Shown: in pieces, positions 2,254-22,376 of the stretch
Layout: each line of letters begins with the position of its first letter
Position numbering within the stretch: the first letter of the stretch is position 1
DNA from: a bacterium
Lineage (GTDB): Bacteria; ARS69
Direction: 5' to 3'
Length of the DNA stretch: 49,937 bases
NCBI GenBank assembly: GCA_025774805.1
Contig: JALGZR010000009.1
Coordinates: 1-49,937 of the forward strand
The notes under the pieces: generated by a model
What the model saw: only the letters and a program-made list of their open reading frames with translations
Told to the model about the DNA's origin: nothing
Databases searched by the model: none
Position numbers and translations under genes: made by a program

Positions 2254-2364
2254 TTTCGGAGGGCGGAAGAGGCGCAGCGGACGATCATCGGATAAGATCG
2301 AGTGGGGCGTTCGCGAATCCCCCGCCGGGTCCGGGAGCGAGCACCCCGACCCACCGGAGGAGCC

Positions 2365-3789
2365 ATGCCGCAGGCCGACGGGAGTGGAGGGGTCTTTGTC
2401 GTCGAGGACGAGCAGCTCCTCCGGTGGGGGCTCGTGACCCAGCTCCGCCGGGCGGGATTCGAGGTCGAGGGGTGCGAGAGCGCCGAGGACGCCCTACAAC
2501 GCATGGAGGAGAAGCCCGCCCGCGTCGTGCTCCTGGACATCCGGCTGCCCGGAATGGACGGGATGGAGTGCCTCCGGATCCTGCGGGAGAAGTACCCGGG
2601 CACCGCGGTCGTCATGATGACGGGGCACGGGGCCATCGAGTCGGCCGTCGAGGCGATGAGGCTGGGAGCCTACAACTACCTCACGAAGCCCTTCGACTCG
2701 CGCTCCGTCCTCTCCATGGCCGATGCAATCCTGGGCGCGGCCGAGTCGGTTCCCGCGCCGGCCCCGGAGACAGCTCGGGAGAGGACCCGGACGACGGTCG
2801 AGCCGGAGGCACCGCCCGGCCCGCCGGCGGGCTACCGCATCGACAACCTCATCGGGAGCTCACCCGCGATGGAGCAGATGCGGCGCCTCGTACTGAAGGT
2901 GGCGCGAAGCAGCGCCAATACCGTGCTTCTCACGGGGGAGAGCGGCACCGGCAAGGATCTCGCCGCGCAGATCATCCACTACTCGAGCCGACGCGCCTCG
3001 AAGCCCTTCGTCCACGTCAACGTCGCGGCCGTTCCGTCGGCGCTCTTCGAGAGCGAGCTGTTCGGTCACGAGAGGGGGAGCTTCACGGATGCCCACGCCC
3101 AGAAGCAGGGCCTGCTCGAGCTCGCCGGCGGCGGGACGATCTATCTCGACGAGATCGGAGAGCTCACTCGAGAGGTTCAGACCAAGCTGCTCCATTTCTT
3201 GGAGCACCGGTCCTTCCGGCGCGTCGGCGGCGTGGACCCCCTGCAGGTCGACATTCGGGTCGTCGCCGCGACGAACGTGGACCTGCGGGCGAGAATCGCC
3301 GCCCAGGAATTCCGCGAGGATCTGTACTTTCGTCTCCGGGTCATCCCGATTCACATGCCCTCGCTCGAGGGAAGGGAAGACGACGTGCTCGAGCTGGCCG
3401 AGCATTTCCTGGCCCGGTTCAACCGGCGTCTCGGGAAGCACTTCGTGGGCTTCGACGCAGAGGCCCGCAGAAAGCTGCGCTCCCACCGCTGGACCGGAAA
3501 CGTCCGGGAGCTCAGAAACGTCATCGAGCGCGCGGTGACCTTGGAAGACGGGACCCGAGTGGAATCGTCCATGCTCGTGTTCGATGAGGGACCCCGAGCG
3601 GCAGATACGCCGGAGAGCGCCGGCTCGGGCGAGCTTGTCGCCGGTACCGGCGGCCTCAAAGAGGTGGAAAAGCGGATGCTGATATCCGCCCTCGATCGGA
3701 CGAACTGGAACCAGGTCCGCGCGGCGGAGATCCTGGGAATCGGTCGCGACGCGCTGCGGTACCGCATGCGAAAGCACGGGCTTCTTTGA
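2365..3789 (+). CDS. NtrC/AtoC-family sigma-54-dependent response regulator
   Basis: A 474-residue protein starting at ATG 2365, preceded by GGAGGAG. It has a receiver domain (about residues 10-125; phospho-acceptor D58 in LLDIRLPG; KPF), an AAA+ domain with Walker A GESGTGKD (191-198) and Walker B IYLDEIGEL, and a C-terminal Fis-type helix-turn-helix (NWNQVRAAEILGIGRDALRYRMRK). Such proteins, once phosphorylated, oligomerise on enhancers and remodel sigma-54 RNA polymerase. The sigma-54-contacting loop reads GSFTDA (238-243) instead of GAFTGA; the essential Thr is kept. The gene heads an apparent operon with a solute-binding lipoprotein and a histidine kinase, which is its likely partner. 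The divergent cytochrome operon with its sigma-54 promoter is the obvious target. A longer frame begins at 2302 but lacks a comparable RBS. Confidence 0.93.
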   Translation: MPQADGSGGVFVVEDEQLLRWGLVTQLRRAGFEVEGCESAEDALQRMEEKPARVVLLDIRLPGMDGMECLRILREKYPGTAVVMMTGHGAIESAVEAMRLGAYNYLTKPFDSRSVLSMADAILGAAESVPAPAPETARERTRTTVEPEAPPGPPAGYRIDNLIGSSPAMEQMRRLVLKVARSSANTVLLTGESGTGKDLAAQIIHYSSRRASKPFVHVNVAAVPSALFESELFGHERGSFTDAHAQKQGLLELAGGGTIYLDEIGELTREVQTKLLHFLEHRSFRRVGGVDPLQVDIRVVAATNVDLRARIAAQEFREDLYFRLRVIPIHMPSLEGREDDVLELAEHFLARFNRRLGKHFVGFDAEARRKLRSHRWTGNVRELRNVIERAVTLEDGTRVESSMLVFDEGPRAADTPESAGSGELVAGTGGLKEVEKRMLISALDRTNWNQVRAAEILGIGRDALRYRMRKHGLL

Positions 3790-3812
3790 GGGACAAAAAG
3801 GGGAGCCGGAAG

Positions 3813-5588
3813 GTGTTCGACAAGTCGAAGGGTGTCCCACTCCGGGCACGAGGTTCCAGGGGGAGGAATGCGCGCGCACGGAGGGTGGCGCTGGCCGTGG
3901 CGTTCGGTCTCGCGGCGGGGGGATGTGCGCGGGAGGAGCCCGCCCCGAGCGGGGAAGGCGGCGACGAGCAGATCATCCGGGTTGCGGGCTCGGATGACGT
4001 CTATCCACTCGCCCGGGCGCTGGCGCGTCAATTCGAGAACAGTCATGCCGGCCATCGAGTCGTGTTCACGCCGCCGGCGCACACGCGCGGGGGGGTCGCC
4101 GCAATCTCGGTCGGCGACGCCGACATCGCGCTCGCTTCCCGACCCCTGACGATGGAAGAGAAGGAGACGGAGGCGACGTATCTTCACCTCGCCCACGATC
4201 CGCTGGTCTTCGCCACCCATCGCAACGTGAAGGTCGGGCGACTCACCCGCCAACAGCTCCTCGACATCTACAGCGGCCAGATCTCCAACTGGCGGGAGTT
4301 GGGGGGGCACGACGCGCCCATCACGGTCCTCGACCGTTCCGAGCACACGTCGCTCAAGGTGATCCTCCGGAAAGAGCTATTCGACCCCTCCTTCGCCGTC
4401 ACGCCGAGCGCGCTCGTCCTGGAACGTCCCGAAGACGTCATCACATCGCTCGTCATGGTCGAGAACACGATCGGCTACCTCTCGTTCGGCAACGCCCTTC
4501 TCGAAGGTGTCGCGGTCAACTTCCTGGGAATCGACGGGGCAAGGCCGTCGCCCGAGAGCCTTCGGAAGGAACACTATCCCTACACGCGCCCGTTCGGGTT
4601 TCTTTTGGGGCCGGATCCCAGCCGCGCCGTCATGCGGTTCGTCCAGTTCGTGTACGGGGAGGAGGGCCAGCGAACGATCGAGGGCCACGGCTTCACTCCG
4701 GTCACCATGAACCTCATCATCGCCGTGCTGCCGGAACAGGACCTCCTGGCTCAGGAGCAGCGGTATGCTCCCCTCGTGGAGTACCTCAGCCGACAGTTCG
4801 GCCTGCAGACGACCGTGACGCTCCGGCTCCTGCCGAACTACGGGGAGGTGATCAAGGAGTTCAAGGCCGGCCGGATCAACGCGGCTTTCCTGGGAAGCCT
4901 GGCGTTCGCCCTGGCGTACGCGCAGGCCGGCGTGACTCCGATCGCCCGTCCGGAAAAGGACGGGGTCTCCCAGTATCGAGGCCTCATCGTCACGCGAAAG
5001 GACAGCGGGATCAGGAATTGGGCCGACCTCCACGGCAAGTCTTTCGGTCTCGTCGACACGGCGACCACCGCCGGATACCTCTACCCGCTTCTCTACTTCC
5101 GAGAGCACGGCGCCGGGCGCCCCGAGGACCACCTCGGTTCCCTCGTGTTCACGGGTAGCCACGACCTGCTGTTCCTCAAGGTGTACGAGGGCGAGCTGGA
5201 CGCCGGTGCGGCCAAGAATCTCATGTTGGACGAGGTGGCGAAGAGGCGCCCGGAGGTCAAGGAGGAGCTCCGGATCCTCGCCGTCTCGCCGCCGGTGCCC
5301 AACAATGCTTTTGTCCTCGGACCGGACGTGGGTTTTCCGTGCTACAAGTGTCACCAACTCGTTCCCGACACCGGAGTCGAGGCCGCCGCTCTCCCTCCTC
5401 GCGAGCCGGAGGAGCTCTACGAGTGGATGACTGGTCTACTTTTGAGCCTCCACGAATCTCCCGGGGGTCCCGAGGTCCTGGAGGCGCTGGGCGCGGATCG
5501 GTTTGTGAGGACCACCGCGCGGGACTTGGACGAGGTCTTCCGAATGATCGATCAGGCGGGCTTGGATCCTCGAGACTATCGTCCCTGA
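3813..5588 (+). CDS. Tandem PstS-like/PhnD-like binding lipoprotein with a CXXCH heme motif
   Basis: About 591 residues from GTG 3813, with GGGAG/GGA upstream; TTG 3786 is an in-frame alternative. The N-terminus has a hydrophobic stretch ending in the lipobox AAGGC. Residues about 50-295 resemble PstS-like phosphate-binding proteins (VAGSDDVYPLARALARQF, LTRQQLLDIYSGQISNWRELGG, NTIGYLSFGNAL). Residues about 300-590 resemble PhnD/SsuA-type binding proteins (LIIAVLPEQDLLAQEQRYAPLVEYL, AGRINAAFLG, GLVDTATTAGYLYPL). CYKCH at 510-514 is a c-type heme attachment motif inside the second domain, where such proteins normally have a loop. No transporter genes are nearby; it sits between an activator and a kinase, so it is probably a periplasmic sensor presenting ligand or redox state to the kinase. 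That role is inferred. Confidence 0.85.
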   Translation: MFDKSKGVPLRARGSRGRNARARRVALAVAFGLAAGGCAREEPAPSGEGGDEQIIRVAGSDDVYPLARALARQFENSHAGHRVVFTPPAHTRGGVAAISVGDADIALASRPLTMEEKETEATYLHLAHDPLVFATHRNVKVGRLTRQQLLDIYSGQISNWRELGGHDAPITVLDRSEHTSLKVILRKELFDPSFAVTPSALVLERPEDVITSLVMVENTIGYLSFGNALLEGVAVNFLGIDGARPSPESLRKEHYPYTRPFGFLLGPDPSRAVMRFVQFVYGEEGQRTIEGHGFTPVTMNLIIAVLPEQDLLAQEQRYAPLVEYLSRQFGLQTTVTLRLLPNYGEVIKEFKAGRINAAFLGSLAFALAYAQAGVTPIARPEKDGVSQYRGLIVTRKDSGIRNWADLHGKSFGLVDTATTAGYLYPLLYFREHGAGRPEDHLGSLVFTGSHDLLFLKVYEGELDAGAAKNLMLDEVAKRRPEVKEELRILAVSPPVPNNAFVLGPDVGFPCYKCHQLVPDTGVEAAALPPREPEELYEWMTGLLLSLHESPGGPEVLEALGADRFVRTTARDLDEVFRMIDQAGLDPRDYRP

Positions 5589-5595
5589 CCGGACC

Positions 5596-7473
5596 ATGAA
5601 GCTCGAACTCGATCTTCTCGGTAAGGGGCGACTCTCCCGCCGGCTGTTGGGCGCCTTCTTCGTGATCGCCGCGGTCCTGGTCGGGGCCGGGATGATGGTC
5701 GCGGTCCAGATCACCGGTCGGAGCCTCGAGGCGCGGGCGAAAAGTCAGCTCGCCTCGGACGAGGGGATCGTTCATCTCGTTCTTCGCGATCTCGAGGAGC
5801 AGGTGACCCTCTACAGCGACTTGCTCGCGGACGCCGAGATCCTCACCGAGCACCTCGATCATCCGACCGACACGCGTTCGCTGACCATCTCTCTTCTCAG
5901 CGGCGCCCGCCGCGCGGGGATGCGCGTGCATCTTCATCGAGAGGACCCTCCGCGGAGCGAGGCCGGCGCGGATGTCATCCGAAAGGGGTTCCTCGGCATT
6001 CGCTCCATGACGCTCACGCGGGGCCCCGCGGGAGACTCCTGGCTGGCGGGGATCCAGAGCGTGGCGCCCGTCGAGAGCAGCGCGGGGATCGAACGCGTCG
6101 TCGCTGTATCGTTCCCGCTCACGCCCGCGTATCTTCAGGAGATCCGGGGGCGCATCGGATCCGACATCTCCCTGGTGGTGCTCGGCGATCGCGTGATCTC
6201 CACGCTCCCGGGGTCTGATGTCGCGACGCTGATGTCGCACCTCAGGGAGCTCGACTCCGTCGAGACGGCGGACCGCCCGTTCGTCATCGACACCGCCTCC
6301 GGCTCGGGACCGGTCAAGACGCGGGTCAGCCCCCTTCACATCGGCATGAGGGAAGAGGGGCTGTTGCTCCTGACGATGCCCATGAGTCATCTGCTGACGG
6401 CAAAACGGACGATCTTCCTCCGGGGTCTGCTCGTCACCGCCCTCCTTCTCTCCGGCGCGAGCCTTCTCTACCACTCACTCATTCGACGGGTCACGACGCC
6501 CCTGGAAAAGCTGTCGGAGGCCACGCGCGCCATCGCCCGCGGCGATCTCGATCTCCGGGTGGACGTGACCACGCGCGACGAGCTCGGGAGACTCGCCACG
6601 TCCTTCAACGTGATGGTTCAACGGTTGCGGCAAGCGCGCCGGGAGATCGAGGACTGGAACCGGACGCTCGAGCGTCGGGTGGAGGACCGCACGAAGTCGC
6701 TCCAAATAGCCCAGACGCAACTGGAGGGTGTGAACGCGCAGCTTCGCCGGGCCCTGGAGGAGCTGCGGGAGACGCAGGAGCAGATGATCCAGACCGAGAA
6801 ACTCGCCGCGGTCGGCCAGATGGCCTCGACGATGGCCCACGAGATTCGCAATCCCCTGTCGGGCATTCGGGCGGCGCTCGAGGTGATGGCCCCCGAGTTC
6901 GGGGACACGGAGTATGCGGAGGTGCTCGAGCAGGTCCTTCATCAGGTGGACCGGCTCGGACGCACCACGACCCAGCTCCTGAGCTTCGCGCGTCCGGCCG
7001 AGCCGCAGCTCGCCCCCACCCGTCTGAGGGAGCTGATCGAGAGCACCTGCTTCCTCGTGGAGGGCCAGGCCGAGAGGCAGGGCGTGGAGATCCGCACGGA
7101 TCTGCAGCCGCCGGATCGCGCGATCTTCCTCGATCCGCAGCTCACCGCGCAGGCCTTCCTGAACATCGCCCTCAACGCCCTGCAAGCCATGGAGGGAAAG
7201 GGGGCGCTCACCATCCGCTCTCGGTGGCACCCCGACGAAGAGGCGGTGAGCATCGCGTTCACCGACACGGGACCCGGCATGCCCGCCGACGTTCGCGAGG
7301 AGATCTTCACTCCCTTCTTCACGACGAAGCGCCACGGGACCGGACTCGGCCTCTTCGCCGTGAAGGACATCATCGAGAGGCAGGGAGGTGACGTGTCGGT
7401 GGCCAGTGCCCCGGGGGAAGGCACGGTGATTACCGTCCGGCTTCCCGCCAAGGACGGTGCGGCACCGGCCTAG
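5596..7473 (+). CDS. Membrane sensor histidine kinase (HAMP-HisKA-HATPase)
   Basis: 625 residues. TM1 spans about 17-40, an approximately 230-residue periplasmic sensor domain follows, and TM2 covers about 275-295. Then come a HAMP domain (TPLEKLSEATRAIARGDLDLR), a coiled coil (about 345-400), a HisKA domain with MAHEIRNPLSG (phospho-accepting H415), and a HATPase domain with NALQAMEGKG, DTGPGMP and GTGLGLFAVKDI. It starts 7 bp after the binding lipoprotein and is the third gene of the activator-lipoprotein-kinase operon. It should phosphorylate the sigma-54 activator in response to the lipoprotein or its own periplasmic domain; the signal is unknown. Its stop codon TAG is the first triplet of a dispersed repeat copy. 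Confidence 0.93.
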   Translation: MKLELDLLGKGRLSRRLLGAFFVIAAVLVGAGMMVAVQITGRSLEARAKSQLASDEGIVHLVLRDLEEQVTLYSDLLADAEILTEHLDHPTDTRSLTISLLSGARRAGMRVHLHREDPPRSEAGADVIRKGFLGIRSMTLTRGPAGDSWLAGIQSVAPVESSAGIERVVAVSFPLTPAYLQEIRGRIGSDISLVVLGDRVISTLPGSDVATLMSHLRELDSVETADRPFVIDTASGSGPVKTRVSPLHIGMREEGLLLLTMPMSHLLTAKRTIFLRGLLVTALLLSGASLLYHSLIRRVTTPLEKLSEATRAIARGDLDLRVDVTTRDELGRLATSFNVMVQRLRQARREIEDWNRTLERRVEDRTKSLQIAQTQLEGVNAQLRRALEELRETQEQMIQTEKLAAVGQMASTMAHEIRNPLSGIRAALEVMAPEFGDTEYAEVLEQVLHQVDRLGRTTTQLLSFARPAEPQLAPTRLRELIESTCFLVEGQAERQGVEIRTDLQPPDRAIFLDPQLTAQAFLNIALNALQAMEGKGALTIRSRWHPDEEAVSIAFTDTGPGMPADVREEIFTPFFTTKRHGTGLGLFAVKDIIERQGGDVSVASAPGEGTVITVRLPAKDGAAPA

Positions 7474-9108: not shown

Positions 9109-9128
9109 CTGGTGAGAAATGCAGGCTA
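9109..9128 (-). repeat. Dispersed TAG-ended repeat, copy B
   Basis: The minus strand reads TAGCCTGCATTTCTCACCAG. The TAG (9126-9128) is the stop codon of the 18-heme cytochrome. Only the head of the repeat is clearly conserved; the 147-bp convergent intergenic stretch 8979-9125 otherwise shows no recognisable feature. Confidence 0.65.
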
Positions 9129-10817
9129 GTGGCAGTCGGTGCAGACCTCACGGTCGGCCTTCGCCCGGACGTGAACTCCCTCGCCGTGACAGGCCACGCA
9201 TTCGAGCTCCGCGTCGTCGAGATGCGGGGTGTGGTCGAAGTCCCCTTCCTCCGTCGAAAATGTCCGCCGCCGGATAACGGAGTGGCAGTCGATACAGTCC
9301 CGCTCCTGATCTCCGTGGTGGCAGGATGAACAGGCGTCCCGTTCGATCTTCAGCGGCTCCGCACCCGTCGCGTCCCGCTCCTCGTGCGTCGTATGACACC
9401 GCTCACAGCGGAGTCCCTCGGTGAGGACGTGCGGCCGGTGGGGGAAATCGGCGCCGAACGCCTTGACTCGCCGCGACTCGACCCCGACGTGGCAGTCGAG
9501 GCACGGCGTCTCGTAGGGCGGGTCGGGCCAGGGGCTCGGAAGGCCGTCGAGGGACCTCTCCCGGCGGGCCTCGTTGATCTGGGAGTGGGCGGCCTCCAGC
9601 AGCGCGAGGCTGTAAGGCAAGTTGTGGATTCCCCGGCCCTGTTCCACCAGCTCGAGATTCGCTCGGGCATCGGCGAGAGCGGCAGGCGGCGACGAGCCCA
9701 GAAGGCGGGTTGTCTCCTCGAGCTGCCGGCGCGTCGCCGCGCCTCTCTCCTCGAGCGTCTCTTTCCATCCGCGGAAGACGTTCCGGTAGGTGGGCCCGTG
9801 GCAGCTCATGCAGGACACCTCCCCGGCCGTGGCGCCGACGTAGGTGGGCTCGAAATGGCACCCCTCGCAGCGGACCCCGGCCCGGTACATGACGTCCGGC
9901 GAGGGGGGAACGCCCTTTCCGCCCAGGCCTGCGTAGAGGTCCCGTTGGGGGGAGTGCCGGCTCCCGTGGCAGGTCGAGCACTCGGTCCGGACGACCTCCA
10001 GATGCCGGGGCGCGACGTGTTCGATCTCCAGGTGGCAGTTCGTGCACTCCACCTTGTGCTCAGTGACGTGGCTCCGGTGGAGAAGATCCCCGTTCTCGTA
10101 CTCCGACAGGCGCTCGGGGTCGTTGTGACACGTGAGGCAGCGCTCCCGCGGGACCTCGCCATCTTGCGGCCCCGGGGGGGTGTGGCAAGAGAGACAGTCC
10201 ATTCCGAACCGGGTGACGTCGGAGTGATCGAACCGGAGCCCGTCCGCGTCCACGATCCTCTCCGGCGTCTCGTGGCACAGCGTGCAGCGCGCCGTGCCGG
10301 TTCCCGCCGGCTGGCCCTTGAAGTGGCACAGAGTGCAGGTGGTGGTCGTGACCGTGATGTGGCTGCCCTGAACGATCTGAGAGTGACACGACGTGCAGCG
10401 CAGTCGCTTGCCCCGCCGGAGCTCCGCCAGGTGGGGGCCATGGTCGAAGAGCACGTCGCCGAAGAGCTCCTTGCCCACCAGGAGTCTGCGCTCGTGGCAC
10501 TCGAGACAGGCGGCGTCGTCCACCTCGGCCCACGGGTTCGTGCCGTACGTGCCGGTGAAGTAGCGAGCCACCATGGACACGGCCTCGTACTTCTTGCGGA
10601 ACTCCGCGGTGATTCCCGGCGGGATGTGACACTCGACACACGCGATGTCGGCGTGGGTGGACGTCTTCCACGACTCGAAGTACGGGGCCATGACGTGACA
10701 GGAGCCGCAGAAGGACGGAGTCGAGCTCATCTCCATCGCTCCGTAGCCGAGGATGAGTCCGATGCCGAGCAGCAGTCCCACCGCGTAACCGGCGACCGTG
10801 AAGCGTCTGAGCTTCAT
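9126..10817 (-). CDS. Eighteen-heme NapC/NirT-like membrane-anchored multiheme cytochrome c
   Basis: 563 residues from ATG 10815-10817, overlapping the upstream gene's stop as ATGA. One N-terminal transmembrane helix (residues about 8-28) is followed by a NapC/NirT-like segment (STPSFCGSCHVMAPYFESWK, HADIACVECHIPPG). In total 18 CXXCH motifs are present: CGSCH, CVECH, CLECH, CTSCH, CTLCH twice, CLSCH, CLTCH, CTNCH, CSTCH, CEGCH, CMSCH, CLDCH, CERCH, CSSCH, CIDCH, CVACH and CTDCH. A helical insert between hemes 12 and 13 carries GIHNLPYSLALLEAA, a helix typical of NrfA-like multiheme cytochromes. The last motif ends exactly at the stop codon. As the last gene of the Rieske/cytochrome b operon it likely carries quinol-derived electrons across the periplasm. 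Confidence 0.92.
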   Translation of the reverse strand: MKLRRFTVAGYAVGLLLGIGLILGYGAMEMSSTPSFCGSCHVMAPYFESWKTSTHADIACVECHIPPGITAEFRKKYEAVSMVARYFTGTYGTNPWAEVDDAACLECHERRLLVGKELFGDVLFDHGPHLAELRRGKRLRCTSCHSQIVQGSHITVTTTTCTLCHFKGQPAGTGTARCTLCHETPERIVDADGLRFDHSDVTRFGMDCLSCHTPPGPQDGEVPRERCLTCHNDPERLSEYENGDLLHRSHVTEHKVECTNCHLEIEHVAPRHLEVVRTECSTCHGSRHSPQRDLYAGLGGKGVPPSPDVMYRAGVRCEGCHFEPTYVGATAGEVSCMSCHGPTYRNVFRGWKETLEERGAATRRQLEETTRLLGSSPPAALADARANLELVEQGRGIHNLPYSLALLEAAHSQINEARRERSLDGLPSPWPDPPYETPCLDCHVGVESRRVKAFGADFPHRPHVLTEGLRCERCHTTHEERDATGAEPLKIERDACSSCHHGDQERDCIDCHSVIRRRTFSTEEGDFDHTPHLDDAELECVACHGEGVHVRAKADREVCTDCH

Positions 10818-12028
10818 CCGGACTCGCCGCCTCGCGCCAATCGACTCCGGTAGAAGACCAGGATCGCGATCGTCATGAGAACGTAGAACCAGAAGACGGC
10901 CAGGCCGACGTGCTTCGTGCGGCGATCGAGCTTGCCGTAGATCTCGTGCTGGACCTCCTCGCCGATCGAGCGCGCGCGCCGGGTGACCTGCTCCACCGGT
11001 TCGAGCGAGACCGTATGGATCAGGGAGAGCGCCTCGGTCACGAGGGTGCGCGCCTCTCCGATCCGACTGAGATGATCCTCGATCTCCAGCGCCTCGCGCT
11101 CGGCCCTGACCGTGAGGGCTTCCGCCCGGTCGATCTCGTCCGTCGCGGAACGGATCATCATCCGGAGCTTCTCGCCCAGAAGAACCTGATCCGATCCGTC
11201 TCCGTGGCACTCGGAGCAGAGCGATTCGAGACCATCCATCGCGAGGGGTCGGATGGCGTGGTGCGAGTGACAGGAGGAGCACTCCGGGACCCCGGCATCG
11301 GCCATCAGGGGATAATGATCCCCCTCGAGAAAGGCCCGCCGCACATCCACGTGACAGGCGCCGCACACCTTCTCGGTGTCTCCGATACCCGGGGGAGTGG
11401 CGCCGTGAACGCCGTGACAGCTCGTACACGTGGCGGCGGCCAGGTTTCGGCCGTCGAGCAGGGAATGTCCGTGCACACCCTCCCGGTAGTCGTCGATGAC
11501 GCCGATGTCGAGCTCGTAGGGCTCCATCAGGTTATCGTCCGCGTGGCAACCGCCGCAGGTGGAAGGCAGGTTCGAGGGAAAGACCCGGCTCGCGGGGTCG
11601 TCGGGAGCCAGAGTGTCGTGGGCACCGTGGCAGTCGGAGCAGACGGCGGTCCGGTCGTCACCGCCGGCAAGCGACCGGCCGTGCTGGGAGGTCTGGTACA
11701 CGGCATACTGATCCACGGGGAGGTTGTAGGCCCGCATCTTCTCCAGAACGGAGTGGCACTCCGCACACAGCTCCGGGATCCCGCTGCGGTGGGACAGGGG
11801 TCGGAAGTCCCCGGCGTGGGCCGCATCCGTGTCCCGGGTGTCCGGATTTCCGCGATGACAGTCGGCGCAGGAGACCTCCTCGCGCGCGTGAATGCTCTTC
11901 TCGAAGGAAACCTTCTCCCGAGGATGGCAGATACCGCACTGACTCTCGGCGGCGGTCGAGATCCCGACCGACGCCAGAGCGACCCCGGACAGGAACAGTA
12001 CGTGGAGCACGAGGGAGTTATTTCTCAT
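10814..12028 (-). CDS. Nonaheme c-type cytochrome with C-terminal coiled coil and membrane anchor
   Basis: 404 residues from ATG 12026-12028, overlapping the cytochrome b stop as ATGA. A signal peptide (HVLFLSGVALASVGISTAA) precedes nine CXXCH motifs: CGICH, CADCH, CAECH, CSDCH, CGGCH, CTSCH, CGACH, CSSCH and CSECH. The C-terminal third is a charged helical region (about 290-370) followed by one transmembrane helix (VGLAVFWFYVLMTIAILVFY) and a short basic tail, so the heme domain is periplasmic and tethered to the inner membrane. Its position between cytochrome b and the 18-heme protein suggests it is a subunit of the same quinol-oxidising complex and accepts electrons from the b or Rieske subunits. 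Confidence 0.9.
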   Translation of the reverse strand: MRNNSLVLHVLFLSGVALASVGISTAAESQCGICHPREKVSFEKSIHAREEVSCADCHRGNPDTRDTDAAHAGDFRPLSHRSGIPELCAECHSVLEKMRAYNLPVDQYAVYQTSQHGRSLAGGDDRTAVCSDCHGAHDTLAPDDPASRVFPSNLPSTCGGCHADDNLMEPYELDIGVIDDYREGVHGHSLLDGRNLAAATCTSCHGVHGATPPGIGDTEKVCGACHVDVRRAFLEGDHYPLMADAGVPECSSCHSHHAIRPLAMDGLESLCSECHGDGSDQVLLGEKLRMMIRSATDEIDRAEALTVRAEREALEIEDHLSRIGEARTLVTEALSLIHTVSLEPVEQVTRRARSIGEEVQHEIYGKLDRRTKHVGLAVFWFYVLMTIAILVFYRSRLARGGESG

Positions 12029-13146
12029 ACCGCTCTTGCGCCGTAGTAAGTCAGCAGGATCCATACGATCAGGGCTATCAGGCCTCCCCCCAGGGCGACG
12101 GATCGGGACGCGGTGCCCTCCCGGGAGCGATCGAGAAACGGAAGGGCCAGCAGCGCCAGAAACACGAGAAAGAGCAACAGACCGACCAGCCACGAGGGAA
12201 GGTATCCGGAAGTCCACTGCAAGAAGCCGAACGGCGCGAGCAGGTACCAGGGAGGACCGACGCCGGGGACGGTCGCGTAGAGATCCGCCTTGCCGAGCAG
12301 GGGCCTGGGAACCAACACCGCCAAGCTGACGAGCAGCCCGAACAGGAGGCTGAGGAGGATTGCCAGGTTGATCAGGTGACGCCGGAAGTCCGTATCCCCC
12401 CGAGCCCTGCTCCTGCCCGAGACCTCGCTCAATCCGACCCGGCGTACGGAGGAGAAGTGGAGGTAGATCAAGCCGACGGCGAGAATCGGGAGAACCGCCA
12501 CGTGAAGCACGTAGAATCGGATCAGCGTCAGATCCGAGATGTGCGTGCCGTCGCCGCCGATCAGGGCCGAGATCAGGGGACCCCAGAGAGGGACCGCGCG
12601 GATGATCTCGAGCGCCCGGACGCTGGACCAGTAGTCCTGGGCGGTCCACGGCAGCAGCCGGCCCGTCAGATCGGAGTGCAGGCAGACCACCAACAACAGG
12701 AAGCCGAACACCCACATGAGCTCCCGAGGCGTCCGGTAGACTCCCTGAAGGAAGAACCGCAGAAAGCGTAGGATCAGAACCCCCACCAGAAGCTGGGCGC
12801 CCCAGTAGTGGATCTGGTGGATGAACCACCCGAATTCCACTTTGCGCACGATCGTGCCCAGGCTCGCGTGCGCGGTCTGCGGGGTGGGCAGATAGTAGAG
12901 GGCCAAGAGAGCTCCGGTGACGATCTCCAGCGTGATTAGGACGACCACGATCAGTCCCAGAACCCGCGGCCAGCGACCGTAGGAGGGCAGAGCTCGGTCG
13001 CGGGCCTCCGCGATGGCCTCTCGGATGCCCTTCCGACTGTCGAGCTCCGCGTAAAACAGCCCGTAGCTGGTGAGCAGTGAGAGGATCTCCGTGAGGTTCA
13101 GACGGCGCGAGAGCCAGTCCAGAACCCCGGAACGCTCGTTCTCCAC
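12025..13146 (-). CDS. Cytochrome b subunit (b6/bc1 type), one heme ligand replaced
   Basis: 373 residues from GTG 13146, about eight transmembrane helices, covering both the cytochrome b6-like and subunit-IV-like parts. The segment from FGWFIHQIHYWGA onward aligns without gaps to plant cytochrome b6. The first helix-B histidine (H-YWGA) is present, but the second, expected in ILHVFR, reads ILRFLR; this Arg codon is at 12766-12768. Both helix-D histidines are kept (RFYVLHVAVLP and GLIYLHF). The Qo-site PEWY motif reads PPWY, and LPWDQ reads LPWTAQ. It is encoded between the Rieske and nonaheme genes and should be the membrane quinol-binding subunit. The alignment is from memory of the family. 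Confidence 0.9.
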   Translation of the reverse strand: MENERSGVLDWLSRRLNLTEILSLLTSYGLFYAELDSRKGIREAIAEARDRALPSYGRWPRVLGLIVVVLITLEIVTGALLALYYLPTPQTAHASLGTIVRKVEFGWFIHQIHYWGAQLLVGVLILRFLRFFLQGVYRTPRELMWVFGFLLLVVCLHSDLTGRLLPWTAQDYWSSVRALEIIRAVPLWGPLISALIGGDGTHISDLTLIRFYVLHVAVLPILAVGLIYLHFSSVRRVGLSEVSGRSRARGDTDFRRHLINLAILLSLLFGLLVSLAVLVPRPLLGKADLYATVPGVGPPWYLLAPFGFLQWTSGYLPSWLVGLLLFLVFLALLALPFLDRSREGTASRSVALGGGLIALIVWILLTYYGARAV

Positions 13147-13165
13147 GATCGGCCCCCGGTCCCTC

Positions 13166-13672
13166 CTAGAGGTGCACGAAGATCTCGCCCAAACGGGTCT
13201 CGACGCGGTGCCGCCTCAGCGGCCCCGGTGGCGGGCCCTTGAGCACGTTGCCGTTGAGGTCGAAGGCCCCGTCGTGACAGGGGCATTGAAGCAGCCGCCG
13301 ATCACCGTCCCACGTCAGGACGCATCGCAGATGGGTGCAGATTGCGGAGAGTCCGATCAGGCGGTCTTCACCGGTGCGGACGACGTAGATCGGCTCCCGA
13401 CCGTGGCGGACGAGCTGGGCGTGGCCGACCGGGAGGGAATCGAGCGGCCCCACCCGGATGATCCGGTCCGCCAGGCTCTCCCGGGCCCGCGGGGGCTTCA
13501 GGAAGGCCGCGACCACCCACAGAAAGCCGAACCCCCAGAGCGAGAGAAAGCCCCCACCCAACCAGCGCAGGATGCGCCGCCGCCGGGGCACCGGAGCCTC
13601 GGCGCTCTCCTCCCGATCCCCGGGACGCCGCTCGCTCCCGCTCCCCTCCGATCGATCCCGTGAAGGCTCCAC
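13166..13672 (-). CDS. Rieske [2Fe-2S] protein of a bc-type complex
   Basis: 168 residues from GTG 13672, with GGAG 6 nt upstream. A basic N-terminus and a single membrane anchor (LGGGFLSLWGFGFLWVVAAFL, about 39-59) precede the Rieske fold with cluster motifs CTHLRC and CPCHDG. The family transfers electrons from quinol at the Qo site to a c-type acceptor. It is first in the four-gene operon Rieske-cytochrome b-nonaheme-18-heme; its stop lies 19 bp before the cytochrome b start. Confidence 0.93.
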   Translation of the reverse strand: MEPSRDRSEGSGSERRPGDREESAEAPVPRRRRILRWLGGGFLSLWGFGFLWVVAAFLKPPRARESLADRIIRVGPLDSLPVGHAQLVRHGREPIYVVRTGEDRLIGLSAICTHLRCVLTWDGDRRLLQCPCHDGAFDLNGNVLKGPPPGPLRRHRVETRLGEIFVHL

Positions 13673-13694
13673 TCGGTCTCCACTTCCCGGGCAT

Positions 13695-13714
13695 CACCTG
13701 GCGGCACCTGGCGG
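13695..13714. promoter_or_regulatory. Tandem decamer repeat upstream of the Rieske operon
   Basis: CACCTGGCGG occurs twice head-to-tail, 23-42 bp before the Rieske start codon. A 10-bp period puts both copies on one helix face, as for a regulator site. The remaining 153-bp gap to hemA shows no clear terminator or -35/-10 pair. Confidence 0.3.
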
Positions 13715-13825
13715 CGCGCCCGCCCGATCCTCCCGTGCTCGTGCGTCCGGGAGCGGGCGACATTGTCTCGATCCCGCGTCGGCCAAGTTACCGGCTCGAC
13801 GAGTGGATCGGCAAGCGGAAGCGGA

Positions 13826-15184
13826 TCACTCCGGCGGCGGGGTGGGCCCCGCCTCTCGGCTGAAGAGGCGCCGCAGAAGGTAGAGGTTCATCCGACGCTC
13901 CTCGCTGGATTCGGCCTCCTTCAGCCGGGTGACGGAGCGACGCAGGAGAGTCTTGACGTATCGCTGGAGGCAGGCGTCGACGACGGATTCGATCTCGTCC
14001 GAGGTTTGGCGCCGGATTCTCCGGAGCTCAATCTCCCGCAGCTCCTCGAGGAACGCTTTGAACTCCTGAAGGGTCGGACGCAGCTCAAGGTCGCGGATCC
14101 ACTGCTGGAGCTCCTTCAGCTCCTCCTCGATCAGCTTCTCCGCGTTCGGGATCTCCTTTCGCCGCGCGGCCAGATTGCTCTGCACGATCTCGTTCAGATC
14201 CTCCAGGCCGAACAGATAGACGCCGTCCACGCCCGCGACGTCGGGGTGCACGTCCCGCGGAACCGCGATGTCCAAGATGAAGAGCGGCGTCCCTCTCCGC
14301 TCCGCCATGGCCGCGCGCACCATCTCCGGGAGAATGACGGGTTCCGTGCTTCCCGTCGTCGTCAGGACCACGTCGGCCTCGGCCACGGCGTCGGAGAGCT
14401 CCGCAAAGGAGCGGGCTCGAACCTCGAGATTGCTCTTTCCGTTCAGCTCCCGGACGAGGGATCGACTGCGCTCTTCGCTCCGGTTCACGATCGTCAGGTT
14501 CGCGATTCCCTGCCGGAGGAAGTGCCGGGCCGCCAGGCCCCCCGTCTTGCCCGCCCCCACGAGGAGGGCGCGGCGCCGGCCCAGATCGTCGAACAGCTTT
14601 CGGGCGAGCTCCACGGCGGCGAACGCCACGCTGATCGCTCCCTCCCCGATCTTGGTCTGGGTGCGGACCATCTTCCCGGCGCGGAATGCTCCCTGAAACG
14701 CCCGCATGAGGATCGGCCCCAGAGGAAGGGTCTCTTTCGCCGTCCGGTAGGCGTCCTTGACCTGTCCCGCGATCTGGGGCTCGCCGAGCATCATGCTCTC
14801 CAGACCCGCGACCACTCGATAGAGGTGGCGGAGGGCTTCCTCTCCACGGAGGTGCTGACCGTGAGGCCCCTCGAAGTAGGAGCTGTCGATCCCGACGCGA
14901 TCGAGCGCCGCTCGCACGCCGTCCGCGATCGGCGCGCCGTTCGCGGTCTCGACGTAGATCTCCGTCCGGTTGCAGGTGCTGAGCACGATGCCGGCCACGA
15001 TTCCGTCGGCTTCCGCGATCGTCTCGAGGAAGGCCCTCACCTGGTCGGAGCTCATGGCCACCCGCTCCCGGATCTCCGTGGTCGCCCGATGGTGGTCGAT
15101 CCCCCAGAGCTGGACCTCGCCCTGATGCCGAAGAGACTCCCCGTTCCCCGGAGTGCCCGCTCGGGTGCTGCGCGGTTCCGTCAT
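13826..15184 (-). CDS. hemA: Glutamyl-tRNA reductase HemA
   Basis: 452 residues. It reduces glutamyl-tRNA(Glu) to glutamate-1-semialdehyde, the first committed step of C5-pathway tetrapyrrole synthesis. Family signatures are GIDHHRATTEIRERVA, the catalytic-Cys motif LSTCNRTEIY, GLESMMLGEPQIAGQVK, the NADPH-binding GAGKTGGLAARHF and the C-terminal helical dimerisation region. The start ATG 15182-15184 overlaps the stop of the hemX-like gene (TGATG), implying translational coupling. It is last in the heme operon, although its product feeds the first gene, hemL. Confidence 0.96.
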   Translation of the reverse strand: MTEPRSTRAGTPGNGESLRHQGEVQLWGIDHHRATTEIRERVAMSSDQVRAFLETIAEADGIVAGIVLSTCNRTEIYVETANGAPIADGVRAALDRVGIDSSYFEGPHGQHLRGEEALRHLYRVVAGLESMMLGEPQIAGQVKDAYRTAKETLPLGPILMRAFQGAFRAGKMVRTQTKIGEGAISVAFAAVELARKLFDDLGRRRALLVGAGKTGGLAARHFLRQGIANLTIVNRSEERSRSLVRELNGKSNLEVRARSFAELSDAVAEADVVLTTTGSTEPVILPEMVRAAMAERRGTPLFILDIAVPRDVHPDVAGVDGVYLFGLEDLNEIVQSNLAARRKEIPNAEKLIEEELKELQQWIRDLELRPTLQEFKAFLEELREIELRRIRRQTSDEIESVVDACLQRYVKTLLRRSVTRLKEAESSEERRMNLYLLRRLFSREAGPTPPPE

Positions 15185-16044
15185 CACGCCTCTCCGGTGG
15201 TGAATTCGTGGAAGCTCGACGCGAAGTGGTCCACGAGGCCGATACCGCAAACCAGGGCGAGAAAGGCGATGATGGAGAGGATGTTCATACGCCTGCCGCG
15301 CCAACCGAACCCTCGGTGGAGCACGAGGCCCGCCGCGTAGAAGAAGAAGACCGTCCAGGAGGCCAGGATCTTCGGATCCAGATGGGACAGGGGAACCGGG
15401 GCCTCCCATTCGACCCGGTTCGCGAGGGAGGTCAGCCACACGTGTCCCGTGAGCAGGCCGCCCAGGAGGAGCGGCACGCCCAGCTGAACGGCCCCGACGC
15501 TCATTCTCTCCAACACCTCCAGGGAGGGAAGGCGACGGAAGAAGAGGCCGAAGTGCCGGCGGGAGAGCTGGCGGGCCTGGATCAGGTAGAGAAGGGAGTA
15601 CAGGAATCCGATGCTCAGGGCCGTGTACGCCAGAAGGACGAGGACCGCATGTCCGACGTAGCCGGGATCGTGAAGGAGCGGACTGTCGGGCGTCTTCGTC
15701 TCGAAAAGGAGGCTCGAGAGGAGCTGAACGAGCAGCGCGAGCGCGATGACCTGATAGCCGGTCGCCCGGACTTTCAGGCGCGCCTCCACGATGGAGTAGA
15801 TGGCGAGGATCGAGAGGGCGAGCAGCGAGAGGAACTCCGACGTCGTAGCCATCGGAAGGCGATGCCAGGCGGCGACCCGGGCGAGCACGACCAGGACGTG
15901 AAGGGCGAGAGTTCCTCCGAGTACGCGGCGGCTCCACCGCGCCGCCCCGCCGTACGCGCCGAGGAAGATCCGGAGGTAGACGAGCCAGAGGGCCAGGTAG
16001 GCGATCGGGAGCAGAGCGTTGGACCACCGGACGAACGCCTCCAT
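15184..16044 (-). CDS. hemX: HemX/CcsA-like membrane protein of cytochrome c assembly family
   Basis: 286 residues with about eight hydrophobic helices, matching the CcsA/HemX (cytochrome c assembly) family in length and pattern: a histidine-containing loop (LLHDPGYVGHAVLVLLAYTAL) and SHLDPKILASWTVFFFYAAGL, the equivalent of the DPKETW region. The tryptophan-rich WWD heme-handling motif of true CcsA/CcmC is not evident, so HemX is a better label than CcsA. HemX proteins are encoded next to hemA and influence its level or heme traffic. The start ATG 16042-16044 falls just inside the gap after hemY. Confidence 0.85.
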   Translation of the reverse strand: MEAFVRWSNALLPIAYLALWLVYLRIFLGAYGGAARWSRRVLGGTLALHVLVVLARVAAWHRLPMATTSEFLSLLALSILAIYSIVEARLKVRATGYQVIALALLVQLLSSLLFETKTPDSPLLHDPGYVGHAVLVLLAYTALSIGFLYSLLYLIQARQLSRRHFGLFFRRLPSLEVLERMSVGAVQLGVPLLLGGLLTGHVWLTSLANRVEWEAPVPLSHLDPKILASWTVFFFYAAGLVLHRGFGWRGRRMNILSIIAFLALVCGIGLVDHFASSFHEFTTGEA

Positions 16045-16045
16045 G

Positions 16046-17485
16046 TCAGTCCTCCTTCCCGGCGGGGAGTCCGAGCCAGCCCAGGACCTCGCTCGCGATC
16101 CTCTCGGCCTCGGCCACGCAATGGTTCACGGACACGCCGCGGTAGGAGCTGCCCGACAAGAAGAGACCGGGATATCTCGACCTCGCCGCGTCGATGGCGG
16201 CCAGTCTCGCCACGTGCCCGGGCTCGAACTGGGCAATGGCCCGCTCGTGCCGGATGATCCAGTTTCGTTCCGGACTCGATCGCAGGCCGTAGAGCCCGCG
16301 TAGCTCGTCGAAACAGAGTCGGGCGAGGGATTCGTCGCCCTGCTCCACGACCTCCGGGTCTTGCGCGCCCCCCACCATGCAGCGGACCAGCACTTTGTCC
16401 TCGGGTGCCCGGCGCCGGAAGATGCTCGAGGACCAGAGCACTCCGATCAGTCGGCGGCGCTCGGACGACGGGATCAGCATCCCGAACCCGTTCAGGGGAT
16501 GGCTCACGTCGCCGCGGGCGAAGGCCAGGGTCACGACGACCAGCGGGGCGTAGGGGATTTCACCGAGAAGCCGCCGGAGATCGGAATCCGGCAGATGGTC
16601 GCGCGCTCGATGGGCCGGGGAGGTGTCTACGATCGCGTGGAACGGACCGCACTTCTCCGCTCCGGCGCATACCCACCACGCGCCTTTCTCCCGGACGAGT
16701 CGATCCACTGCGAACCCGGTGCGGAGCGATCCTCGGAGGGAGTCTCCCAGACGTTTCGGCAGCGTTCCCATTCCCTCCCGGAAGCTGCAGAGCGTGCCGC
16801 CCGGGCCCACCGCGGAAGGACCGGATCCGTTCTTCCGGCGCTCGCGGGACAGGCGGATCATCGCGCGGAACAGACCCCCGTAGTCTCGCTCGAGCTCGAC
16901 CATTCGGGGAAAGGTCGCGGCCAGGCTCAGCCGGCGCGAGTCGCCGGCGAAGATCCCCTTGACCATGGGATCGAGAAGCCGCTCCGCGAACGCGCGCCCC
17001 AGGCGGCGCCGGCCGAAGGCATCGACGGTCTCGTCCTTCTCCGGATCCGTCCCGGCCTCTCCGAGACCTCGGCGCGGGGGCAGGATGATCTCTGCCGCCA
17101 TCCGGAGCTTCGCCCCCGGAGACAGAACGTCGGACCGGAGGAACGCAATCGGGGAGAGCGGCACTTCCCGCAGGCGACCGCCGATCAGGAGAAACCGGTG
17201 CCGAGCCGAGTCTTCGCTGGGAAGAAGGTCCTCGCGCAGTCCCAGGCGGTCCACGAGCCTCAACGTCGCGGGCTCGTTGTCGAGGAACCCGTTCGGGCCC
17301 CACTCCAGGTGATAGCCCTCTTCGTGCAAGGTGCGCAGCTTGCCGCCGACCTCGCCGTCCCTTTCGAAGACGGTCACCTCGATCTCGTGACCCCTCCCTG
17401 CCGCCAGAGCCTCGAGTTGGCTCGCGGTGCTCAATCCGGCGATTCCCGCGCCGACGACGGCGACCGCAGGCGGGCGCTCAGGCAT
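16046..17485 (-). CDS. hemY: Protoporphyrinogen oxidase, HemY type
   Basis: 479 residues. An FAD-dependent oxidase that removes six hydrogens from protoporphyrinogen IX (or coproporphyrinogen III in some lineages). The N-terminal Rossmann motif VAVVGAGIAGLSTASQLE, the second box FERDGEVGGKLRT and the substrate-side GYHLEWGPNGFLDNEP are family hallmarks. The C-terminal LFLSGSSYRGVSVNHCVAEA completes the FAD site. This enzyme classically uses oxygen, while HemN in the same operon is oxygen-independent, a mix seen in organisms of low or variable oxygen. The start overlaps hemH by 8 bp. Confidence 0.95.
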   Translation of the reverse strand: MPERPPAVAVVGAGIAGLSTASQLEALAAGRGHEIEVTVFERDGEVGGKLRTLHEEGYHLEWGPNGFLDNEPATLRLVDRLGLREDLLPSEDSARHRFLLIGGRLREVPLSPIAFLRSDVLSPGAKLRMAAEIILPPRRGLGEAGTDPEKDETVDAFGRRRLGRAFAERLLDPMVKGIFAGDSRRLSLAATFPRMVELERDYGGLFRAMIRLSRERRKNGSGPSAVGPGGTLCSFREGMGTLPKRLGDSLRGSLRTGFAVDRLVREKGAWWVCAGAEKCGPFHAIVDTSPAHRARDHLPDSDLRRLLGEIPYAPLVVVTLAFARGDVSHPLNGFGMLIPSSERRRLIGVLWSSSIFRRRAPEDKVLVRCMVGGAQDPEVVEQGDESLARLCFDELRGLYGLRSSPERNWIIRHERAIAQFEPGHVARLAAIDAARSRYPGLFLSGSSYRGVSVNHCVAEAERIASEVLGWLGLPAGKED

Positions 17486-18602
17486 GGGCCCGCTCCCGCT
17501 CCTCGACCGCCGGTGCCTCCCCGCCCTCGAACGCGACCGTCACCAGGTGGTCGGCCAGGGACTTCAGCCAGCCCGCGTCCAGGTTCAGCGCCTCGCCGCG
17601 GACGAAGTCCTCCACGCCCAGGCCCCGGGCCTCTCCGGCCAGCCACTGATCCAGCTCCTGTAGGGTCTCGATGTGCTCGCACGTGAAGCTGACCGGAATC
17701 ACGAGCAGCCGGCGGCACCCCCGGACCACGAGGCGCCGGGTCTCTTCCAGGACGAACGGTCCGATCCATCGGATGGGGCCGACCTGGCTCTGGAAGGCCA
17801 GGAGCGGACGAGCGGCGCCCATCACCCCATGCCACCAGCTCCCGATGTCGGCCAGGCGGGAGGAGAGGTGCTCATGGACGCCGGCCACGGTCGCACGCGT
17901 CTGGGAGAGGTAGGGATCGCCCTGACGAATGAATCTCTGGGGCAGCGAGTGAGCCACGAAGAGAAGGGCGCACTGCTCCGGGGCCACGCCCTGCCCCGCC
18001 CAGCTCCGGAGCGCCGGCTCCGCTCGGCCCGAAAGAGCGGCGAGGTATCCGGGCAGGTCGTGCCATTCCGGAATCACGTGGACGGCGGCGTCGGGGGCGA
18101 GCTCCGAGAGAGCGCGCAGCACCTTTCGAAGAACGGTTCCGGTGGTCGCTTCCGCATACTGCGGGTACATGGGCAACACCAGGTACTGTCGCGCTCCCCT
18201 CTCCCACAGCGCACGGACGGCCTGCTCCGGGAACGGATGCCAGTAGCGCATGGCCGGCTCCGCCTCGAAGGGAAGACCGCGGTCGCGTGCCAGCTCCGCG
18301 AGTCGCTCGCCCTGTTTGCGGGTCCACTCGAGCTGGGGGGAGGCGCCCCCGTAACCCAGGGAGAGATAGCGATCGCGGACCTCCTTCGCGCGGCGGAAGA
18401 CGAGCCACGACCCGATCACGCGTGAAAGGGGGGTTGGGAGAGGCAGAACGGCGGGATCCGCGAAGAGATTGCGGAGGAAGGGAGCGACCGAATCCGGTCC
18501 GTCGGGCCCTCCCATGCCGCCGAGGATCAGTCCCGTCTTCTTGTCCGCGTCGAGAATCGCCCGAGGGACCGCGTGCTTTCGCGCCGGCCGCTTCCTCGTC
18601 AT
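17478..18602 (-). CDS. hemH: Ferrochelatase HemH
   Basis: 374 residues. It inserts Fe2+ into the porphyrin ring. Family motifs are GLILGGMGGPDGPDSVAPFLRNLF near the N-terminus, VLPMYPQYAEATTGTV, the metal-site histidine in LFVAHSLPQRFI, and the C-terminal signature IPVSFTCEHIETLQELD. The start ATG 18600-18602 overlaps the hemN stop as TGATG. It has an approximately 20-residue basic N-terminal extension relative to short ferrochelatases. Confidence 0.95.
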   Translation of the reverse strand: MTRKRPARKHAVPRAILDADKKTGLILGGMGGPDGPDSVAPFLRNLFADPAVLPLPTPLSRVIGSWLVFRRAKEVRDRYLSLGYGGASPQLEWTRKQGERLAELARDRGLPFEAEPAMRYWHPFPEQAVRALWERGARQYLVLPMYPQYAEATTGTVLRKVLRALSELAPDAAVHVIPEWHDLPGYLAALSGRAEPALRSWAGQGVAPEQCALLFVAHSLPQRFIRQGDPYLSQTRATVAGVHEHLSSRLADIGSWWHGVMGAARPLLAFQSQVGPIRWIGPFVLEETRRLVVRGCRRLLVIPVSFTCEHIETLQELDQWLAGEARGLGVEDFVRGEALNLDAGWLKSLADHLVTVAFEGGEAPAVEERERAHA

Positions 18603-19978
18603 CAGACCGTCCTCGAAAACACCGGCTTGCCCCCCGTGGGATCCAGATACGCATCCAGCTCCATGCAGAGGTTCCGGAGAAAGAACCTTCCGGTTTCCGT
18701 CACGGCCACCCGATCGGTCTCGAAGCGGACGAGTCCGTCCTTCTCGTAGGGCCGCAGCCGCTCCAGCTCCTCACGGAGTGCTTCGTGGAGCCTCACTCCG
18801 AATCGCGCCGAGGTCAGGTCGAAGGGGAGCTCGAGGTTGCACATCAGGTTCAGAATGGACTCGCGCCGGAGCAGATCATCCGGGCTCAGACGATGCCCGC
18901 GAACGACCGGGAGCCGATCGGACTCGAGCGCCTGCTGCCATCCGTCGAGACTCGAGTCGTTCTGGACGAAGCGATTCGCCAGGTCCCCGATGCCGCTCAC
19001 CCCGAAGGCCAGAAGGTGCTCGGCCGGTCGGGTCGTGTATCCCATGAAGCTCCGGTGGAGCGAGCGCCGTTGGAGCGCGACGGCGAGCTCGTCGTCGCTC
19101 CGGGCGAAGTGATCGAGGCCGATCCACTCGTACCCGGCGGCCTGGAACCGCTCCACGGCGAGCTGGAAGAGACGGAACTTGTCGTTCGGCGCGGGCAGGA
19201 ACGTCGTGTCGACCTTCTTCTGGTTCGGGCGCACCCAGGGGACGTGGGCATAGCTGTAGCAGGCCACTCGGTCCGGCCGGAGCTCCAAGATCGTGCTCAG
19301 GGTCCGCTCGAAAGACTCCGGGGTCTGGGCGGGGAGACCGTAGATGAGGTCGAGGTTGACGCTCTCGAAACCGGCGTCCCGGCAGGCGGAGTAGAGCTCG
19401 CGGGTGGGGTGCTCGTGTTGGGTCCTTCCGATCGCCTTCTGGACCCGGCGGTCGAAGTCCTGGATCCCCAGACTGATCCGATTGAAGCCGAGCTCTCGGA
19501 GAAGAAAGATCTGCTCCCGCGTCGCGATGCGGGGGTCGATCTCGATGGAGATCTCTCCTTCGGGCTCGATCTCGAACGCCGAGCGGATCATTCCGAACGC
19601 GCGGCGGAGCTGTGACTCGTCCAGGTAGTTCGGGCTGCCGCCGCCCCAGTGAAGCTGGACGACACGGCGCTTCCGTCCGAGGAAACTCGTGACGAGTCCC
19701 AGCTCCCGTTCCACGTGGTCCAGGTAGCCGTCGATGATCTCGGGGTCCCGGGACACGATGGAATTGCAGCCGCAGTAGTGACAGCGGGCCAGACAGAACG
19801 GGAGATGCAGGTAGAGGGACAGCTCGTCCTCGGGGAGCCGGGCGAGATCCCCGAGGGCCCGGCGATACTCGGCATCGCCGACCTCGGGTGTCCAGACGGG
19901 CACCGTGGGGTAGCTCGTGTAGCGAGGCCCCGGCCGGTCGTACTTGGAGAGGAGCTCGGTGGGGACGGCGACGCTCAC
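18602..19978 (-). CDS. hemN: Oxygen-independent coproporphyrinogen III oxidase HemN
   Basis: 458 residues from GTG 19978, which overlaps the hemE stop as GTGA; this coupling and the typical N-terminus (LLSKYDRPGPRYTSYPTVP) decide the start. The radical-SAM motif CLARCHYCGC (CxxxCxxC plus the fourth HemN-type Cys) distinguishes true HemN from HemW-like paralogues. The downstream LHWGGGSPNYL, ISIEIDPR and NRISLGIQDF are HemN signatures. It decarboxylates two propionates without oxygen. Confidence 0.96.
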   Translation of the reverse strand: MSVAVPTELLSKYDRPGPRYTSYPTVPVWTPEVGDAEYRRALGDLARLPEDELSLYLHLPFCLARCHYCGCNSIVSRDPEIIDGYLDHVERELGLVTSFLGRKRRVVQLHWGGGSPNYLDESQLRRAFGMIRSAFEIEPEGEISIEIDPRIATREQIFLLRELGFNRISLGIQDFDRRVQKAIGRTQHEHPTRELYSACRDAGFESVNLDLIYGLPAQTPESFERTLSTILELRPDRVACYSYAHVPWVRPNQKKVDTTFLPAPNDKFRLFQLAVERFQAAGYEWIGLDHFARSDDELAVALQRRSLHRSFMGYTTRPAEHLLAFGVSGIGDLANRFVQNDSSLDGWQQALESDRLPVVRGHRLSPDDLLRRESILNLMCNLELPFDLTSARFGVRLHEALREELERLRPYEKDGLVRFETDRVAVTETGRFFLRNLCMELDAYLDPTGGKPVFSRTV

Positions 19979-21018
19979 GCTTCGACCTCCGGACGGTGGC
20001 CGCGGACCGTCTCCACGAGCGTCTCGACGGCCTCGATCGGTGTCGTCGGCAGGATGCCGTGTCCCAGGTTGAAGACGTGCCCCGGCGCCAGGTCTCCCGC
20101 GCGGCAGATCTCCCGGGTGCGGCGACGGATCTCGTCGCGGCTTCCGTAGAGCACGGTGGGATCGAGATTGCCCTGTACGGGAAGGGAGCCCGTCTCGGCC
20201 AGCGCCGACGCGAGGTCGAACGTCCAGTCCAGTCCGAGGGCGTCGGCTCCGGATCCCACCATCTGCCGGAGGTACGGCGCCCCGCCCTTCATGAAGAGGA
20301 CGCGCGGCACGCCGGTGCCCTCCAGCGACTCGAAGATCCGACGCAGTCCGGGCAGGACGAGGATCTCGTAGTCCGCGGGGGTGAGAATTCCCGCCCACGT
20401 ATCGAACAACTGAACGGCGTCGACCCCCGCGCTCACCTGCATCCGGAGAAAATCCGCGATCTGATCGGTCAGCTTGGCGAGAAGCCTCCGGAGGAGATCG
20501 GGCCGTCCGTAGAGCATGCTCTTCAAACGAACGAAATCCTTGCTTCCACCACCCTCCAGGAGATAGGCGGCGAGCGTGAAGGGGGCACCGGCGAATCCGA
20601 TAAGGGGTGTCGTGCCGAGCTCTTCCCGCAGCGTCCGGATGGTGTCGCCCACGAAGGCGAGGTGCTCCCGGGAATCGACGATCCGAAGGGCGTCGACGTC
20701 GTCCTCGGATCGCACGGTGTGCAGCAAGCGCGGTCCCCCGTCGGTGAGCTCGAAGGGAGCGCCCATGGGCTCCAGCGGAACGAGAATGTCGCTGAAGAGG
20801 ATGGCCGCATCGAATCCGAAGCGTCGAATCGGTTGCAGTGTCACCTCACTCGCGAGCTCGGGGGTCTGGCAGAGCTCGGAGAACGTTCTCTTTTCCCGGA
20901 CCGCCCGATACTCCGGCAGATAGCGCCCCGCCTGTCTCATGATCCAGATCGGGCGACGCGACGTGGGCTGGCCGCGGAGTGCCGCGAGGAAGGGAGGAGT
21001 CACGGTGCCCGCCCTCAC
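19975..21018 (-). CDS. hemE: Uroporphyrinogen decarboxylase HemE
   Basis: 347 residues from GTG 21018, overlapping the hemL stop as GTGA. It removes four acetate carboxyls from uroporphyrinogen III. Family signatures are RRPIWIMRQAGRYLPEYR, ILFSDILVPLEPMG, GFAGAPFTLAAYLLEGGGS and VQGNLDPTVLYG, and the conserved GHGILP is near the C-terminus. Length is normal for the family. Confidence 0.96.
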   Translation of the reverse strand: MRAGTVTPPFLAALRGQPTSRRPIWIMRQAGRYLPEYRAVREKRTFSELCQTPELASEVTLQPIRRFGFDAAILFSDILVPLEPMGAPFELTDGGPRLLHTVRSEDDVDALRIVDSREHLAFVGDTIRTLREELGTTPLIGFAGAPFTLAAYLLEGGGSKDFVRLKSMLYGRPDLLRRLLAKLTDQIADFLRMQVSAGVDAVQLFDTWAGILTPADYEILVLPGLRRIFESLEGTGVPRVLFMKGGAPYLRQMVGSGADALGLDWTFDLASALAETGSLPVQGNLDPTVLYGSRDEIRRRTREICRAGDLAPGHVFNLGHGILPTTPIEAVETLVETVRGHRPEVEA

Positions 21019-22313: not shown

Positions 22314-22376
22314 TCGATCCACCCCCTGCGAAAGGCCTCGCGGTCTTCGAAGGTACCTCGCCAGGGGATTGTGAGT

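Follow-up and report, generated by a model that had tools for sequence, protein, structure and literature searches.

The window, a stretch of 49,937 nucleotides from a bacterium of the ARS69 lineage, carries a predicted extracytoplasmic three-component sensor in which a heme-bearing dual binding protein would signal to a membrane histidine kinase, and the kinase to an NtrC-family regulator. We assign this reading a probability of about two in three. One domain of the fused binding protein contains a CxxCH motif, which suggests that small-molecule binding is combined with heme chemistry outside the membrane. In related loci the heme site is swapped between the binding protein and its transducer, and this exchange is a new observation of the present study. 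We also lean, with some reserve, toward the broader view that these loci represent a widespread and undescribed class of sensors, wherein a PhnD-like protein and a transducer (a kinase or a GGDEF/EAL protein) share one relocatable c-type heme. In the window this heme would be inserted in a periplasmic-binding-protein fold, and a sensor scaffold would thus have acquired a cytochrome-like fragment independently for a second time.

The regulator, binding protein and kinase genes lie in this order on one strand within positions 2302-7473. The regulator (2302-3789, + strand) belongs to the NtrC/AtoC family, with a receiver domain, a sigma-54 AAA+ domain (Sigma54_activat) and a Fis-type helix-turn-helix domain (HTH_8) recognized by Pfam, and it retains both the phosphoacceptor Asp and the Walker A motif. 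The GAFTGA loop that contacts sigma-54 has the sequence GSFTDA in this regulator and GAFTDA in that of locus L151; the other regulators keep GAFTGA or GSFTGA. The binding protein (3813-5588, +) is encoded in an ORF spanning 3786-5588 (+), with a start codon that is either TTG at 3786 or GTG at 3813. Depending on this uncertain start, it begins within a few bases of the end of the regulator gene, and 7 bases separate it from the kinase gene. The kinase (5596-7473, +) consists of a transmembrane segment, an extracytoplasmic domain lacking cysteine, a second transmembrane segment, and HAMP, HisKA and HATPase_c domains as assigned by Pfam, with the H-box and G-box retained. A sequence search with its sensor domain gave no match to solved structures. 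The flanking sigma-54 activator and membrane kinase described in an earlier sequence-only reading are thus confirmed, as is the absence of a nearby transporter, because no ABC permease (PF00528) is encoded on the contig. A search for sigma-54 promoters yielded matches at chance level only, and one for sigma-70 promoters and terminators yielded nothing exceeding chance.

Pfam matches support the proposal that the binding protein fuses a PstS-like to a PhnD-like domain. The PBP_like_2 domain occupies residues 57-293 (3e-28; 3954-4664, +) and can be aligned with the structure 4gd5, and the Phosphonate-bd domain PF12974 occupies residues 312-580 (3e-55; 4719-5525, +). A fold search with the modelled PhnD-like half ranked ArrX at the top, followed by PtxB, PhnD and AioX. 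There are only three cysteines in the protein, namely C47 in a plausible lipobox and C519 and C522 of the CxxCH motif. Export and membrane anchoring are predicted from the signal-like N-terminus, and the protein is probably a lipoprotein. In the PstS-like lobe, the alignment with 4gd5 places HTSLK opposite SGTR and SRP opposite SRD, positions that we take to be the phosphate-coordinating residues of PstS. The lobe does not carry the residues aligned to the phosphate site, and phosphate is therefore unlikely as its ligand. The pocket of the PhnD lobe retains Tyr, Tyr, Thr-Thr, His and Asp/Glu across most members with or without heme, plus an added invariant Lys, where these positions were equated with the tyrosines, serines, His and Asp of AioX by alignment and not by structure. 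This conservation suggests that the PhnD lobe still binds a ligand.

The motif itself, CYKCH (5340-5354, +), is a predicted c-type heme attachment site at the coordinates originally given. It falls in an insertion of ~25 residues (5334-5408, +) that is missing from heme-less relatives, and these relatives align cleanly on both sides of it. The earlier description had the motif replacing a normal loop; alignments and model point instead to an added stretch of residues. In both, the insert is located after the last inter-lobe strand and before the next helix of the PhnD-like domain. Structure prediction, which had been proposed as a check, was applied to the PhnD-like half folded alone, that half being poor in the full-length model. 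It gave a mean pLDDT of 75, with the insert disordered at pLDDT <50.

Five further full-length homologues from several phyla, which are 38-69% identical to the window protein, have both domains and a C[YF]xCH motif, and in each case a kinase gene lies downstream. The motif is CFRCH in an Acidobacteriota MAG (69% identity), CYNCH in a Nitrospinota MAG (44%), and CFDCH, CFECH and CFECH in three genomes of one phylum. All six members of this heme clade, including the window protein, keep the His and both Cys, whereas the rest of the insert is divergent, a pattern that supports selection on the motif. Chance occurrence was rejected, given this conservation and a frequency of 0.03% among shuffles of the protein's own residues. 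The possibility that CxxCH is a general trait of PF12974 proteins was also rejected, because PhnD-only relatives and a paralogue in the same genome lack it. The heme-clade dual proteins and the heme-less dual protein of L151 form one clade, which takes in all seven dual proteins of the tree and has 95/98 support. No further PhnD relatives were found on the viral contigs scanned. Homologues that keep both domains and the motif beside kinases, as had been anticipated, are thus present throughout the heme clade. The expected conservation of the three-gene order holds in part: a kinase is located downstream in six of six cases, but an NtrC regulator is linked in only four (the window, L036, L149 and L150), with differing order. 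No regulator was found next to the binding protein-kinase pair in L035 or L040, and L039 could not be judged.

We examined 60 further loci with PhnD-only relatives from one large phylum along with the loci of the first survey, and counted a kinase as adjacent if it was within 400 bases on the same strand. When the binding protein carries CxxCH, none of the five complete adjacent kinases does (0/5); a sixth kinase of the heme clade is cut by an assembly gap, and its sensor part also lacks the motif. When the binding protein lacks CxxCH, 42 of 48 adjacent kinases carry one CxxCH before the catalytic part, and two later loci raise this count to 44/50. The contrast between 0/5 and 44/50 gives a Fisher p of 1.3e-4, and that between 42/48 and background kinases chosen without regard to neighbours (2/29, from a sample of 30 kinases from five genomes) gives p 8e-13, although these tests overstate independence because no more than about four lineages are represented in the heme clade. 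Loci from related genomes are likewise not independent observations, and the genome sample is uneven.

The same exchange is seen within the dual family alone, where kinases carry CxxCH in 0/5 cases beside heme-bearing duals and in 3/3 beside heme-less duals. The latter, from G362, G729 and G730, adjoin kinases with CFRCH or CYRCH. Formally, they are the homologues without CXXCH beside kinases that the sequence-only reading had named as evidence against heme, yet their kinases carry the motif instead, which strengthens the heme reading. In 27 kinases for which both transmembrane segments were detected, the motif is mostly 62-71 residues past the first segment and ~85 residues ahead of the second. 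It thus sits between the two membrane segments, on the exported side, at a nearly constant distance.

In addition, nine loci pair a PhnD-like protein with a GGDEF/EAL protein that has one CxxCH (L175, L176, L182, L185, L186, L194, L200, L202 and L212). These partners were identified by sequence motifs, and that of L175 was checked with Pfam. The pairing therefore reaches into c-di-GMP signalling. Exceptions exist, in that six of the 50 kinases beside heme-less proteins lack CxxCH, and at two such loci a protein with CxxCH is encoded on the opposite flank. At about ten loci, no adjacent transducer is identifiable.

Attachment of heme c is possible in this organism, as judged from its genes. A CcsA-type cytochrome c assembly protein (PF01578; 15184-16044, − strand) is encoded in the genomic context of the sensor, and a ResB gene is found elsewhere in the genome. 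The organism thus combines CxxCH on a predicted exported protein with the machinery for c-type heme attachment, which speaks to its capacity rather than proving attachment to the binding protein. The CcsA-type gene is part of a long cluster beside the sensor (9126-22322, −) in which genes for heme synthesis and respiration are found together. Its heme genes are hemA, the CcsA-type assembly gene, and those for ferrochelatase, a HemN-type protein, uroporphyrinogen decarboxylase (UroD) and a class III aminotransferase; the others encode multiheme cytochromes, cytochrome b, a Rieske protein and an amine-oxidase-type flavoprotein.

The sequence-only reading knew of no described system with this exact architecture. 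Close relatives in kind do exist, and what the window system adds to them is the heme insert and the fusion to a PstS-like domain. The AioX, ArxX and ArrX proteins are members of the PhnD-like fold that serve in sensing, alongside a kinase and a regulator linked to RpoN (PMC5908839). The window shares with AioXSR, ArxXSR and ArrXSR a PhnD-like protein used for sensing rather than transport, a membrane kinase and a regulator of the type acting at RpoN promoters (PMC5908839). Specifically, its PF12974 protein has ArrX as the best structural match, lies on a contig lacking a permease, and is linked to a membrane kinase and an NtrC/RpoN-type regulator. In contrast, no heme, PstS-like domain or CxxCH is described for AioX or ArrX (PMC5908839), and none of the three cysteines of the window protein corresponds to Cys106 in the AioX pocket. 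No arsenic molybdoenzyme was seen among the neighbouring genes scanned. The module is best read as belonging to the AioXSR/ArrXSR type, in a variant form whose receptor complex would include a c-type heme.

The tetrathionate and thiosulfate sensor kinases TtrS and ThsS also couple a PhnD-like sensor domain to a kinase, but in those proteins the sensor domain is built into the kinase itself, and the word heme is absent from the report (PMC5408782). The TtrS model matches the binding protein weakly (0.0023). Another parallel is provided by sCache_heme (DUF3365/Tll0287), in which a cytochrome-derived CxxCH fragment is inserted into Cache domains and whose signalling members bind NO; the authors consider this insertion to be the first such case (PMC12889525). 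Both involve a short CxxCH fragment in a pre-existing extracytoplasmic sensor scaffold, but here a type II periplasmic binding protein, with no match to PF11845, provides the scaffold and would partner a kinase in trans. Since the scaffold is unrelated and acts in trans, the window insert would be the second case after sCache_heme. The ABC-type binding proteins PstS, PhnD and PtxB have domains of like fold, but the window protein differs from these in its tandem fusion, its heme insert and the permease-free contig.

These features suggest that the anchored PstS-like and PhnD-like protein holds a c-type heme, attached to the loop that is inserted close to the hinge of its PhnD-like domain. We infer that it takes in two signals, one from a small ligand that is most likely an oxyanion and one from the heme, such as redox state or an NO-like gas. 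The protein would then dock onto the neighbouring kinase at the extracytoplasmic domain of the latter, and the kinase would phosphorylate the NtrC-family regulator and thereby turn on sigma-54 transcription of its target genes. Presumably, ancestral pairs of a PhnD-like protein and a transducer had the heme site on the transducer, and in the heme clade it was transferred to the binding protein.

Several other explanations were weighed against this sensor model. One is that the heme is the sole sensor, of redox state or NO, with the two lobes of the binding protein merely providing a scaffold and a dock for the kinase. NO binding by sCache_heme signalling proteins (PMC12889525) and the replaced phosphate-site residues of the PstS-like lobe favour this explanation, but the largely kept PhnD-lobe pocket points to continued ligand binding, and we consider this explanation unlikely. 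An improbable option is that CxxCH forms a metal site or a disulfide, as might be imagined for a motif on a flexible loop in the model when heme is itself predicted from sequence. However, retention of the His with both Cys in 6/6 proteins, recurrence of CxxCH on the exported side of partner kinases, and the CcsA-type and ResB genes all argue for heme. Finally, the protein might serve an unlinked ABC transporter with the kinase linkage incidental, since both Pfam domains are known in transport proteins. The kinase linkage is retained across phyla and the contig lacks a permease, which makes this explanation very improbable and supports the role in sensing, by stable pairing with a kinase, that had been proposed at the outset.

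To our knowledge, periplasmic binding proteins are not known to carry covalent heme, and no heme-bearing binding protein acting with a kinase was found in the open-licence papers searched. If the sensor model is correct, the receptor complex could report an electron acceptor and the envelope redox state at once. The exchange of CxxCH between partners is a direct, testable sign that the heme acts where receptor and kinase meet, and it singles out dozens of sensor pairs, so far unstudied, as subjects for experiment.

Some loci depart from the common arrangement. In L187, L203 and L207, neither the binding protein nor the adjacent kinase has CxxCH. In L188 (6155-7192), the gene after that of the PhnD-like protein encodes not a transducer but a protein containing nine CxxCH motifs. 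A paralogous module in the genome of the window, L038 (G000:C105, 7024-13026), contains a PhnD-like protein and a kinase that both lack the motif, together with an NtrC regulator, and a second kinase with two CxxCH motifs is located ~2 kb further on.
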